Source of the DNA: Candidatus Aegiribacteria sp.
GTDB lineage: Bacteria; Fermentibacterota; Fermentibacteria; Fermentibacterales; JCC-6
Assembly (NCBI GenBank): GCA_023138735.1
Contig: JAGLOY010000081.1
Coordinates: 1-49,590 of the forward strand
Direction: 5' to 3'
Length of the DNA stretch: 49,590 nucleotides
Part shown: positions 34,012 through 39,365 of the stretch, in pieces
Position numbering within the stretch: position 1 is the first letter of the stretch
How the letters are laid out: each line of letters opens with the position of its first letter
Position numbers and translations under genes: made by a program
The notes under the pieces: model-generated
Told to the model about the DNA's origin: nothing
Seen by the model: only the letters and a program-made list of their open reading frames with translations
Database searches by the model: none

Positions 34012-34050
34012 ATCTATAAACAATCCGGGAAACAATCCCCTTGCGAAATA

Positions 34051-34066
34051 GTGAACATTTGTTTAC
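34051..34066. promoter_or_regulatory. LexA-like dyad ahead of the DnaE-like polymerase
   Basis: GTGAAC-ATTT-GTTTAC is an inverted repeat with one mismatch. The core GAACATTTGTTT resembles the Gram-positive-type LexA box (GAAC, 4 bp, GTTC/T). It ends 9 bp before the ATG and overlaps a possible weak promoter (TTGCGA at 34041, TACATA at 34064, spacing 17). Confidence 0.5.
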
Positions 34067-34075
34067 ATATGTATC

Positions 34076-36955
34076 ATGAAATATGTCATCGCACCCATTC
34101 GAAGCTGGTACTCGTTCAGGTACGGTGTTGAATCCCCTGCATCGCTGGCAGCGGGAATTGCCCGATGCGGATATGCCGGAGGGATCCTTGCGGACTCCGC
34201 TGTTGTAACCGGTCAGCTGGAATTCGTTGCGGCATGCAGAGAGAACGGAATCATCGGGGCTGCGGGAGCTTTCCTGACGATCAGAGGAAAAACAGTAGTA
34301 TTTGCAGCTCTGCAAGGCGGATGGAGCGACCTCTGCAGCCTTATAACCTCCACGACGGTTCCGGAGCGGGTTTCAACAGAGGAATCACTGGCAGCATGCA
34401 AAAAACTGGCAGCGATAGTTGATAAGCCTTTCGGAGCAAGGGTGCTGAAGAATGAAATGGGGTTCAATGGTCCGGTATTCGTCTCTCTTTTACCCGAGTT
34501 CATGACCGGCAGAAAAGTAAGCTCGGGAGAGCGTGAGATCCTTGATCAGGGATGCCGCCCTCTGGCATCCTGGCCGGTTGTGTTTAAAGATTCGGGCAGC
34601 ATCGAAACCCACAGGATCCTTCGAAGAGGATATCTGGCTATCGAGAAAAGGAACCCGGATCCAGGTGAATCCGCCGGAGAGAATAATGTGTTGCCGGATA
34701 TTGAGACGTTCGAAGAAAGCTTCAGCGGTGCGGAACATTCACTGGCGGAAAACATGCGGCTCTCAGAACTGATTTCAACAGAACCCTCCGAGACAGGTAA
34801 AGTGAGGAATAGAATCTTATCGGAGGAAAGGATGCTTAGCGGGATTGTGAAGAAAAGACTAAGATCCCTCTACAATGAAAGCCCTTCCGCCCGACGCAGG
34901 CTGGAAATGGAACTGAAAGTCATATGCGAAAACGGGCTGGCCGGCTATTTCCTCCGATTTTATGAAATTATCGAGTACTGCAGAGAAAAAAGCATTGCAG
35001 TATCAGCCAGAGGTTCCGCCGGGGGCAGCATTATCGCATACCTCCTGGGCATATCCATAATCTGCCCCATTCAGCATGGGCTCTCCTTCTCACGTTTTTT
35101 CAATGTTCTCCGTTCGAGACCTCCCGACATAGACCTTGATATTGACAGTTCGAGGAGGGATGAAGTCATAAAATGGTTCCTCAGAAAGGCAGGAAAGTGC
35201 GGGGCGGCTGTTTCGCAGATAGTAACACACCGCGCAAGGTCTGCCTTCAGGGTTGCGGCATCAGGCCTGGGTATAAGCAGCAGGGAGACCGACGATCTTA
35301 CTAAACTTCTTCGCTTCCATGATAATGCTGCCTGGAGCAGATTGGCTGCTTCTGCAGCACTGCGGGATTCGAAACTCATCAGGAATATTCCTTCCCACCT
35401 GGCGCCACATCCGTGCGGGCTTGTCTGCACGAGCGAGGCGGTGGACACACTTGTACCCCTTCAACCGAGTCCCAGCGGGTACGATATAACCCATTTCGAC
35501 AAGGATGGGATTGAGGAGATAGGGCTTCTGAAAATGGATCTGCTGGGCCAGAGAGGGCTCACAACAATATCCCTTGCGTGCTCGACACTTGGAAAAACCC
35601 CGATGAGTATTTTTCGCAGAGGGGGAGGCATCCCGGATGCTGCCGGGAGCCTCCTGGATTCCGGCAGGACCATAGGAGTGGTTCATGTTGAATCACCAGC
35701 TATGAGGGGTCTGCTGAAGGAGATGAAGATACGTACAATGGAAGATGTGGCAAGAGCTCTCGCGCTGGTAAGGCCCGGAGCATCAGCAGGAGGAGGAAGA
35801 AAGACTTACCTTGACTGTGTTCATTCTGAATCGATTCATAATTCCTCACTGCCTGAACTGCGATCGATTCTGAAGGAGAACCTTGGAGTAATGCTCTACC
35901 AGGAAGACGTATCCAAAGCCGCTGAAGTACTTCTGGGAAGTGATGAAGCTTCTTCCGATCTTTTAAGGAGAAGGCTCAAGAAGAAACTGGTTGATAAGGA
36001 AGAAATTATCTCAATCTGCAGACGCAGAGGGATGAAGCCTGCGAAGGCGGAAAGCATCTGGGAAGTGCTCTCCAGCTATGCCGGCTACGGTTTCTGCAAG
36101 GCTCATGCGTTTACATATGGTGCCGTCTCCTGCGCGGCAGCACTTCTGAAGGCGAAGCACCCCGCCCTTTACATGGCATCTGTGATGGCGGCCGGGGGCG
36201 GATTTTACAGCTCGAGAGTTTATCTTGAAGAGGCCAGAAGACTTGGTATTTCGTTCATGCCTCCTGGAGTGAACACTGGAAAATGGCTCACTCGCGCGAA
36301 TGAAGAGGGAAAAATAATGCCGGGATTTCATCATCTCAAGGGAATGGGAAGTACGGAATACGAGAAATTGAGAAACGGCAGACCGTATAAATATCCTTCT
36401 GAAGTACTCGAAGCAGGCTGCGGGATGTCTCTGTGCAGAAACATGGCTGCAGCGGGTTGCTTCCGGGAAGCAGGTTTTCCGCCACCGGCCGCACTTCTGC
36501 AGCTGGAGGCAGGTGATGGCGGTTTTTTTCATGGTATGCCGCCGGGTATCCCTGATCTTCCCGACTATTCCATCAGTAACAGGGTCGCCATGGAACTCGG
36601 TCTGCTTAACCTCCCGCTTTCAGCGTCACCCCTGGAGCTGATCACCCGCCCGGAGGGAACGATCCCTCTGGGACGAATCGGATCATTGATCAAAATAAAG
36701 GTCTGGGGAAGGTTCGTTACAGGGAGAAGGCTTGCCGCTGGCGCAGGTTTCCTTATGCTTGAGGACAATACTGGAGTTGCGGATGTTTTTCTGCCATCAC
36801 CGCTCTTCAGGAGGGCCGAGTCTATTCTTGTTCGTTCTGAAGCTACCGTTATAGTAAGGGGCAGGGTAGAAAGAGGGGGCAGGATACGGGGACTTTCAGT
36901 AGAAGCCGGTCCCCTTTCAGCAGCCCCGCTGGAGCCTGAACCGTCAGAGAAATAG
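34076..36955 (+). CDS. DnaE-type DNA polymerase III alpha subunit-like, short form (DnaE2/ImuC-like)
   Basis: This is a C-family polymerase of 959 residues, shorter than replicative DnaE (about 1150). The palm catalytic Asp residues are present: RPPDIDLDID (Asp351, 353, 355) and KMDLLGQRGLTT (Asp488). SARGSAGGSIIAYLLGI, APHPCGLV and GYGFCKAHAFTYGAVSC are the usual PolIII motifs. An OB fold (VWGRFVTGRRLAAGAGFLMLEDNTG) lies at the C-terminus; the tau-binding end is missing. The PHP domain has lost its metal His residues (PIRSWYS instead of the HVHSxYS type). It lacks a Shine-Dalgarno site. These traits fit an error-prone DnaE2-like enzyme in translesion synthesis. I see no imuA or imuB nearby. 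Confidence 0.82.
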   Translation: MKYVIAPIRSWYSFRYGVESPASLAAGIARCGYAGGILADSAVVTGQLEFVAACRENGIIGAAGAFLTIRGKTVVFAALQGGWSDLCSLITSTTVPERVSTEESLAACKKLAAIVDKPFGARVLKNEMGFNGPVFVSLLPEFMTGRKVSSGEREILDQGCRPLASWPVVFKDSGSIETHRILRRGYLAIEKRNPDPGESAGENNVLPDIETFEESFSGAEHSLAENMRLSELISTEPSETGKVRNRILSEERMLSGIVKKRLRSLYNESPSARRRLEMELKVICENGLAGYFLRFYEIIEYCREKSIAVSARGSAGGSIIAYLLGISIICPIQHGLSFSRFFNVLRSRPPDIDLDIDSSRRDEVIKWFLRKAGKCGAAVSQIVTHRARSAFRVAASGLGISSRETDDLTKLLRFHDNAAWSRLAASAALRDSKLIRNIPSHLAPHPCGLVCTSEAVDTLVPLQPSPSGYDITHFDKDGIEEIGLLKMDLLGQRGLTTISLACSTLGKTPMSIFRRGGGIPDAAGSLLDSGRTIGVVHVESPAMRGLLKEMKIRTMEDVARALALVRPGASAGGGRKTYLDCVHSESIHNSSLPELRSILKENLGVMLYQEDVSKAAEVLLGSDEASSDLLRRRLKKKLVDKEEIISICRRRGMKPAKAESIWEVLSSYAGYGFCKAHAFTYGAVSCAAALLKAKHPALYMASVMAAGGGFYSSRVYLEEARRLGISFMPPGVNTGKWLTRANEEGKIMPGFHHLKGMGSTEYEKLRNGRPYKYPSEVLEAGCGMSLCRNMAAAGCFREAGFPPPAALLQLEAGDGGFFHGMPPGIPDLPDYSISNRVAMELGLLNLPLSASPLELITRPEGTIPLGRIGSLIKIKVWGRFVTGRRLAAGAGFLMLEDNTGVADVFLPSPLFRRAESILVRSEATVIVRGRVERGGRIRGLSVEAGPLSAAPLEPEPSEK

Positions 36956-36986: not shown

Positions 36987-39365
36987 ATGTCTATCAATCC
37001 AATCAGACCAGAAGAACTCAAATGGACATGTCCATTGGAAGCTCTTGATTTCAAAACCACAGCGGACATAAAACCTACAGGAGAGATAGTCGGCCAGGAA
37101 AGGGCTATAAAGGCTCTCAAACTCGGTCTCGAAATTCATTCTATAGGGTACAACATGTTCGTAACAGGAATATCCGGAACAGGGCGTGAAACAACCATTA
37201 AGAAAATTCTGGAAAGCATCGATACTACCACAGATAAACTGAGAGACATCATGTACGTTCGAAACATGGAAGATCCCAGAAACCCGATAGCACTAACTTT
37301 TCCTGCGGGAGACGGTGTCAGATTCGTTACAGCTGTGGAAGAATGTGTACAGCTCCTCAAAAGCAACATTCCCGCTGTCCTGGGCAGCGAAAAGGCCGAA
37401 ATGGAAAGCAGGGCAATAAGGGCAATCTACCAGGACAGAAAAAAGACTATTATGGATGCCATCAAGAAGGAAGCTGACGAAGCCAGCTTCTCCATAGTTA
37501 ATTTACCCATCGCGCCTGGGGAATTCAGACCGGATGTTCTTCCCGTGATTAACGACGAAACGGTTACCTTCGATACTCTTCAGAAAATGATGGACGAAGG
37601 GAAGCTTAAAGAGGAAGATCTGAAGAAGTACATGGAACTGCATGAAGAACTTTTCAAGAAGCTCACAGACGTCTTCAGAAAAACCCACGATATGGAAATA
37701 GAGATCCAGATAAAGCTCGAGAAAATGTACCGCAGACTTGTGAAACCTACAATATCCGGAATTGTCTCCATTCTTAAGGAAATTGGTAACGATAAGGCGG
37801 ATAAATGGGCTGATTCGATAGTGGAGATTATTCTTGAAAATCTCAAGGATTTCGCGGAGAGTTCGGAGGGCAAAGATCCATACGTTCTTTTTACACCCAA
37901 CCTGATACTTGATAACGCAGGGAAAACCAAGCGGCCGGTTGTGATCGAGGAATTTCCCGATTCAATAAGCCTCTTCGGAAACATCAATCGAGTTGTGGTT
38001 GATGGGAAACCCTACAGTGATCATACGATGATCAGACCAGGTGCCCTGCATAAGGCTGATGAGGGCTACCTTATCATGAACGCCCTGGATCTGGTCAGAT
38101 CACCGGATCTATGGCAGAGACTTATTCAGACCCTCAGGAACCAGACGACTGTAATCAGGAGCCATGATCCTATGGGTCTGTATCCGGTTCATCTTCATCC
38201 CGAGCCGATTGATACCAATGCCAAGATCATTCTTATCGGTTCTTCGAAGCTCTATTATCTTCTTGCTTCCTACGAGCCGGAGTTCGGTCTTCTCTTCCGG
38301 GTCAGGGCTGCTTTCGATTTTACAATGGACTCCACAGTTGAGAATATCCGTGATTTCACCAATGTTATTGCATGGATCATTAAAGCTGAGGACCTGCTCC
38401 CTATGGATGCAAATGCTGTTGCAGCGGTTGTGGAAGAGAGTGTCAGGCTGGCCGGCCTGCAGGACAGACTTTCCCTGGAATTCAACAGAGTCACCGATTA
38501 TCTTCGCCAGTCAAACTACTTCGCCAGACAGAGGAATGATTCAATCGTTACCGCTGACCATGTCAGGGAAGCAATACAGGAAAAAATTAACCGATTGAAT
38601 CTCAGTGAGTCTTACGCGACCCGGCGTATTATCGATGACACAGTAATGGTCGATACTCAAGGAGAAAAAATTGGACAGGTAAACGGTCTTGCCGTGTACC
38701 AGGGAGTTGATTACTCCTTTGGGCTGCCTGCAAGAATATCAACAAGGGTTTCCGTCGGGAGAAAAGGGTTGATCAATGTTGAGCGTGAGTCAGATATGTC
38801 TGGAACTACGCATACAAAGGGAATGCTTATAATATCTGGCTTCATACAGGGTAAATTTGCAAGGGAATACCCTCTCTCCCTCTCCGCCAGTGTCGTGTTC
38901 GAGCAGAGTTACGGTGGAGTGGACGGGGACAGCGCATCTTCAACGGAGCTTTACGTTCTGCTCAGTGCACTCTCGGAGATTCCAATAAGGCAGGACATTG
39001 CCGTCACCGGTTCGGTTAACCAGTTTGGAGAAATACAGGCTATAGGCGGGGTTAACGAAAAGGTGGAGGGTTTCTTCCGCATATGCAGCGGCAAGGGATT
39101 AACTGGAACCCAGGGTGTAATGATCCCGAAAGCGAACGTAAAAGACCTGCAGCTTCGCGAAAACGTCATTGATGCTGTCATGGATGGCATGTTCCACATA
39201 TATCCTATAGAGTTCATTGAGCAGGGCATCGAACTTCTCATGAAAACAGAAGCTGGGGAGATACTGGGTGATGGAACGTATCCTTCCGATACGATTTACG
39301 GAAAGGTTGACCGCAGGCTCAGGCAGATGGCAGCAACACTGAGAAAATTCTCCTACCACAGCTGA
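36987..39365 (+). CDS. Lon-family AAA (AAA_32) protease with Lon C-terminal domain
   Basis: The 792-residue protein is a LonB/LonC-like protease. The N-terminal ATPase region opens with VGQERAIKALKLGLEI and has a P-loop GISGTGRET, in which Arg replaces the usual Lys. A long helical insert (about 120-260) follows. The second AAA part includes EEFPDSISLFGNIN, ALHKADEGYLIMNALDL and IILIGSSKLYYLL. The C-terminal protease domain has the Ser-Lys dyad, Ser649 in GDSASST and Lys692 in GVNEKVEGF. Their separation of 43 residues equals that of E. coli Lon. It follows the polymerase gene after 31 bp, with GGAAGGA about 8 bp before the ATG, so they may be cotranscribed. Confidence 0.88.
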   Translation: MSINPIRPEELKWTCPLEALDFKTTADIKPTGEIVGQERAIKALKLGLEIHSIGYNMFVTGISGTGRETTIKKILESIDTTTDKLRDIMYVRNMEDPRNPIALTFPAGDGVRFVTAVEECVQLLKSNIPAVLGSEKAEMESRAIRAIYQDRKKTIMDAIKKEADEASFSIVNLPIAPGEFRPDVLPVINDETVTFDTLQKMMDEGKLKEEDLKKYMELHEELFKKLTDVFRKTHDMEIEIQIKLEKMYRRLVKPTISGIVSILKEIGNDKADKWADSIVEIILENLKDFAESSEGKDPYVLFTPNLILDNAGKTKRPVVIEEFPDSISLFGNINRVVVDGKPYSDHTMIRPGALHKADEGYLIMNALDLVRSPDLWQRLIQTLRNQTTVIRSHDPMGLYPVHLHPEPIDTNAKIILIGSSKLYYLLASYEPEFGLLFRVRAAFDFTMDSTVENIRDFTNVIAWIIKAEDLLPMDANAVAAVVEESVRLAGLQDRLSLEFNRVTDYLRQSNYFARQRNDSIVTADHVREAIQEKINRLNLSESYATRRIIDDTVMVDTQGEKIGQVNGLAVYQGVDYSFGLPARISTRVSVGRKGLINVERESDMSGTTHTKGMLIISGFIQGKFAREYPLSLSASVVFEQSYGGVDGDSASSTELYVLLSALSEIPIRQDIAVTGSVNQFGEIQAIGGVNEKVEGFFRICSGKGLTGTQGVMIPKANVKDLQLRENVIDAVMDGMFHIYPIEFIEQGIELLMKTEAGEILGDGTYPSDTIYGKVDRRLRQMAATLRKFSYHS

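Follow-up and report, generated by a model that had tools for sequence, protein, structure and literature searches.

A second DnaE gene and its neighbourhood

The window, that is, the whole 49,590-bp stretch of DNA analysed here, is contig C173 of a metagenome-assembled genome of Fermentibacterota (G000; 3.22 Mb, 91% complete). Among public sequences it stands closest to Candidatus Aegiribacteria and further Candidatus Fermentibacteria. Its forward strand carries a gene for a C-family DNA polymerase, preceded by a LexA-like dyad and followed by a gene for a Lon-like protease. The features considered below are as follows:

34041..34069, + strand: weak promoter-like pair, TTGCGA (34041-34046) and TACATA (34064-34069) with a 17 bp spacer; putative, read from the sequence
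34051..34066, no strand: LexA box GTGAAC-ATTT-GTTTAC, between and over the promoter elements; the same box precedes lexA and the DUF6504-dinB operon and is kept in orthologs
34076..36955, + strand: accessory C-family DNA polymerase (DnaE paralog, 959 aa) with a degenerate PHP domain and without the C-terminal domain (CTD); Pfam, structure matches and ortholog alignment
35126..35134, + strand: catalytic Asp 351 and Asp 353 (PPDIDLDID), invariant in 20 orthologs
35537..35539, + strand: catalytic Asp 488 (GLLKMDLLG), invariant in 20 orthologs
36515..36529, + strand: DGGFF at the position of the DnaE beta-clamp motif; assigned by position in the ortholog alignment
36987..39365, + strand: Lon-like (AAA_32/LonB-type) protease gene, 31 bp downstream of the polymerase gene; Pfam, ortholog loci, GDSAS and NEK motifs

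The polymerase open reading frame, for which an earlier sequence-only reading had given the correct coordinates, matches the Pfam families DNA_pol3_alpha (2.2e-51) and the finger domain (1.6e-24), while no PHP family is called in it. Residues about 268-767 match solved structures of DnaE of the E. coli, Thermus and mycobacterial type. The catalytic aspartates are retained, as that reading had claimed: D351, D353, D355 and D488 correspond to E. coli D401, D403, D405 and D555 and do not vary in the alignment. Its further claims, namely that the metal-binding histidines of the PHP domain, the tau-binding tail and about 200 residues are missing, are borne out as well. The ligand motif HLHxHSxYS has become I-x-P-x-R-S-W-Y-S, TDH has become ADS and DxH is gone, whereas all ligands are kept in the five DnaE1s of the same phylum that were examined. 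The protein ends at residue 959, behind the OB-type region and without the tau-binding CTD, compared with about 1155 aa for Fermentibacterota DnaE1s. The clamp-motif position reads xx[FL]F across the family, only the last F being invariant, and none of the 20 aligned members ends in the SRDF[H/R] tail.

The same genome encodes a separate DnaE1 on a short contig (C33). Because of this, the polymerase is not the sole replicative enzyme, and that reading was dropped. The accessory DnaE shares with Fermentibacterota DnaE1 the palm and finger core (30-36% identity) and the catalytic aspartates, but differs in its shorter length, the missing CTD, the lost PHP ligands and the LexA box before its gene. 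Judged from its sequence, the product of 34076-36955 is very probably an active accessory polymerase.

Across three families of the phylum, almost every genome has the Lon-like gene next to the polymerase gene, and in some of them the gap between the two becomes an overlap. With its GDSAS and NEK motifs the protein is of the LonB type, and its gene is likely co-transcribed with the polymerase gene. Lon-type proteolysis is known to take part in SOS control in E. coli, a point also made in PMC3765255. As a separate observation, the Lon-like gene persists in G005, G011 and G023, three genomes whose polymerase gene has decayed.

The LexA box and the LexA regulon

The dyad at 34051-34066 is exact and ends 9 bp upstream of the polymerase ATG. 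To avoid circularity, only boxes that precede lexA or the dinB operon in related genomes went into the training of the box matrix. Scored with this matrix, the dyad outranks every other site in the window, at 22.67 bits against 6.71 for the runner-up, and none of 60 Markov-simulated windows reached its score. Every ortholog of the genera g1, g2 and g5 with readable upstream sequence has the box before the polymerase gene. Among orthologs of 44-89% identity the distance to the ATG is 9 bp (once 8), and box and spacing are kept even between g1 and g5, whose polymerases share only about 45% identity. In one g5 ortholog (L029) the box is weak, it is degenerate in family f3, and in one genus (G021) it was not found before the polymerase gene. 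The sequence-only reading had proposed SOS control, and the possibility that the dyad is missing in relatives that keep the gene can be set aside. Given the box common to lexA and the dinB operon and its conserved spacing, the polymerase gene is very likely under LexA control, with LexA expected to bind at the dyad.

The same reading had suggested a leaderless message, partly from the lack of a Shine-Dalgarno site. This argument was abandoned because, by a simple motif test, such a site is also missing at about half of the 29 assumed gene starts in the window, so its absence proves nothing. The invariant 9 bp spacing makes the stronger case. Transcription starting 7 bp past TACATA would coincide with the A of the ATG, and the geometry of the promoter pair is kept in orthologs; the pair itself is weak, and a consensus promoter scan did not call it. 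A leaderless polymerase message thus appears plausible, and we lean towards it.

The genome was scanned for pattern matches with 0-1 mismatches to the box, and the neighbouring genes were then read out. This located lexA on contig C165, where the box follows TTGACA and precedes a good Shine-Dalgarno site and a GTG start; in this and in related genomes the same box stands before both lexA and DUF6504-dinB. Other boxed genes encode a radical SAM protein related to the PA0069/Rv2578c families (L119, C134:63830), a DUF3276 protein (C181), a GyrI/SbmC-like protein (C79) and two integron integrases over the TIGR02249 cut-off (L131, C169:12578, and L128, C127:16175). A C5 cytosine DNA methyltransferase gene has a LexA-like box 23 bp before it (L122, C31:7561), and there are a few other regulon candidates. 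No box was found before recA. The radical SAM, GyrI/SbmC-like and integron integrase genes fit what would be expected of an SOS regulon. For the uncultured phylum Fermentibacterota, on which the literature searched contained no SOS study, these data describe a LexA box and an initial SOS regulon, and the boxed integrases extend the known link between SOS and integrons to this phylum.

Several further sites were noted in the scan. The box of the radical SAM gene is a perfect palindrome, GTAAACATATGTTTAC, behind TTGACA. As at L131 and L128, a box lies directly before an apparent partial relative of integron integrases (L127, C101:13259), and this one genome has several SOS-linked integron integrases. 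Two near-identical glyoxalase/VOC-like genes, perhaps gene cassettes, each have a LexA-like box (L124, C79:14091, and L125, C79:20340). One more LexA-like box is flanked by the mutS 3′ end on one side and, on the other, by a gene for a 117-residue protein without a Pfam match (L121, C189:7270).

Lineage of the polymerase

Phylogenetic analysis was performed on the polymerase core only (530 columns). The Fermentibacterota accessory polymerases form one clade (100/100), which lies outside DnaE1 (100/100) and outside the clade of DnaE2s linked to ImuA/ImuB (100/100), and which groups with short DnaEs encoded beside Y-family genes (99/90). A wider tree keeps the family among polY-linked DnaEs: DnaE1, DnaE2 and three polY-linked rows fall on one side of a branch supported at 96/90, and all other rows on the other. 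The stem of the family is long, and support for its exact sister is low (52/22). When whole-protein profiles are compared, every member of the family scores best with the polY-linked DnaE set. A profile search of 385 bacterial genomes retrieved orthologs only in Fermentibacterota, followed by polY-linked DnaEs at <=534 bits.

A CTD, a strong clamp motif and a position in the DnaE1 clade, which mark DnaE1, are all absent, and a common clade with DnaE1 is weakly rejected by the AU test (p=0.034). DnaE3 was dropped as a candidate because there is no PolC, with which DnaE3 occurs: a PF07733 search of the genome returned only the accessory DnaE and DnaE1. DnaE3-type NCBIfam models also score lower; DnaE3 was left out of the tree, as a reference search with NF005377 gave none over the cut-off. 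A phage origin was likewise rejected, since phage DnaE-like matches are <30% identical and the locus is inherited vertically within the phylum.

The sequence-only reading had called the protein DnaE2-like. This is supported in the sense of an accessory, mutasome-type polymerase, but not in the strict sense of a member of the ImuA-ImuB-DnaE2 clade. DnaE2s of the ImuA-ImuB-DnaE2 type are devoid of the CTD and keep the catalytic aspartates while usually losing the PHP metal site, and about 77% of them carry the C-terminal SRDF[H/R] motif (PMC3919608). The Fermentibacterota enzyme shares the former features, but neither the tail nor ImuA and ImuB were found. The family could belong to the ImuA-ImuB-DnaE2 clade after all, as a fast-evolving true DnaE2 whose ImuA/ImuB partners were lost: the AU test does not reject a clade with DnaE2 (p=0.12), the degenerate PHP part alone scores best with the DnaE2 profile, and NCBIfam models for DnaE2 and DnaE1 score the 959-aa protein alike (325 vs 333). 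We regard this as unlikely, because the best trees exclude the family from DnaE2, the whole proteins prefer the polY-linked profile without exception, and SRDF[H/R], ImuA and ImuB were not found.

Probable partners of the polymerase and relation to known mutasomes

As had been claimed from sequence, no imuA, imuB or dinB was found within the window, and the partner, which was expected to be elsewhere or different, is probably encoded on contig C114. There, a LexA box is followed by a gene for an 84-residue DUF6504 protein and, directly behind it, by dinB, a pair kept across the phylum. This dinB is the only Y-family gene of the 91% complete assembly and encodes an active-type DinB with DMD and SIDE motifs, the clamp motif QLEIF and a tail that, judged by eye, resembles the RecA N-terminus (RecA-NT-like motif). 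The DUF6504 protein matches its Pfam model at 25.0 bits (cut-off 24.2). Since a true Agrobacterium ImuB gives a weak match to the same model in its C-terminal domain, and since standalone ImuB-C proteins have been published (PMC3765255, PMC6511836), we infer that the DUF6504 protein is a standalone ImuB-C-like protein. A search of the genome with the ImuA model gave only RecA matches, below the cut-off, and there is no ImuB among the matches.

In Fermentibacterota polY and dnaE do not form one operon but occupy separate loci, each with a LexA box. Among the next relatives the same parts are contiguous: lexA-DUF6504-polY-dnaE (L288), DUF6504-polY-dnaE (L272, L276) and lexA-polY-dnaE (L235, L270, L275, L279, L282). 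Joint action of DinB, the DUF6504 protein and DnaE, which we think rather probable, finds its strongest support in this contiguity. More broadly, ImuA-less [lexA]-[DUF6504]-polY-dnaE operons form a wide set in unrelated phyla, and their DnaEs lie outside DnaE1 and classical DnaE2.

The pattern of losses was followed by searching 32 Fermentibacterota genomes for lexA, dinB and the accessory polymerase, whose gene is full-length in most genomes of the phylum. G005 (98% complete) has none of the three; G011 lacks dinB, and its polymerase gene is a C-terminal remnant before the Lon-like gene; G013 has lost dinB and the polymerase jointly. In G023 dinB is kept and the polymerase gene is a small remnant, while G009 (66% complete) and G019 (88% complete) keep the polymerase with no dinB detected. 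With kinship ignored, p is about 0.008 for the joint absence of dinB and the polymerase, and 0.016 when only genomes >=90% complete are counted. The two are not strictly tied, since they sit in separate operons and G023 keeps dinB without the polymerase.

These exceptions, together with the lack of linkage and a remnant clamp motif that may suffice, would suit a LexA-induced polymerase that acts alone in gap filling or lesion bypass, with DinB and ImuB-C forming a separate pathway. We find this rather improbable in view of the contiguous polY-dnaE and DUF6504-polY-dnaE operons of other phyla, the shared LexA box and the joint losses in G005, G011 and G013; moreover, the two genomes apparently without dinB are those of 66% and 88% completeness. 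A degrading duplicate of a replicative-type DnaE without present function, to which the long branch, the lost PHP site and the absence or remnants in G005, G011 and G023 might point, is hardly credible for a gene that is full-length in most of the phylum, with invariant catalytic aspartates and with box and spacing conserved across genera.

The preferred reading is that DnaE, DinB, ImuB-C and RecA constitute a split, ImuA-less, LexA-controlled mutasome, in which the accessory DnaE would be a damage-induced translesion, mutagenic polymerase; we consider this probable. The earlier proposal of a mutasome-type accessory polymerase is thereby supported. As it shares the LexA switch with the separate dinB/ImuB-C operon, this second DnaE probably copies damaged DNA. 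In the undamaged cell, LexA bound at 34051-34066, over the promoter, would block transcription. RecA filaments would then trigger LexA self-cleavage and release three LexA-boxed units: lexA, DUF6504 (ImuB-C-like)-dinB, and the polymerase with the Lon-like protease. The polymerase has no CTD for the clamp-loader, a dead PHP domain and a weak clamp motif; for this reason its recruitment to the stalled fork probably depends on DinB, with its canonical clamp motif QLEIF and RecA-NT-like tail, and/or on the ImuB-C-like protein, with RecA presumably substituting for ImuA. The Lon-like protease might limit the lifetime of the mutagenic enzymes. Taken one step further, and only tentatively, the family may represent a third accessory DnaE lineage, apart from DnaE1 and ImuB-linked DnaE2, that works with active Y-family polymerases, here in split LexA-controlled units and with a co-expressed Lon-like protease ending the mutagenic phase.

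Compared with the ImuA-ImuB-DnaE2 cassette of M. tuberculosis, Caulobacter and Pseudomonas, the Fermentibacterota system likewise has a second DnaE under LexA control that lacks the CTD and has a weak clamp motif, and the PHP metal site is lost here as in most such cassettes. It differs in having no ImuA, no inactive ImuB and no SRDF[H/R] tail, and the best tree keeps its DnaE apart from the DnaE2 clade. Variants without ImuA, which combine a Y-family polymerase with DnaE2, a standalone ImuB-C or both, have been described (Timinskas and Venclovas 2019, PMC6511836; Aravind et al. 2013, PMC3765255); examples are active PolY with DnaE2 in Bacteroidetes and lexA-imuB-C-polY in Geobacter (PMC6511836). 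The Fermentibacterota system resembles these variants in the absence of ImuA and a typical ImuB and in its RecA-NT-like Y-family polymerase, standalone ImuB-C-like protein and extra DnaE under LexA. Unlike in those variants, the modules are distributed among separate LexA-boxed loci, and the DnaE represents a divergent lineage of its own with a dead PHP domain; its gene is coupled to that of a Lon-like protease. ImuA-less mutasomes as such are thus already published; new here are the split form, the phylum and the divergent polymerase tied to a Lon-like protease. This suggests that a mutasome lacking ImuA and ImuB can be put together from unlinked parts, each under separate LexA control, and the contiguous lexA-ImuB-C-polY-dnaE operons and the split form together offer a testable series for the origin of the ImuA-ImuB-DnaE2 cassette.
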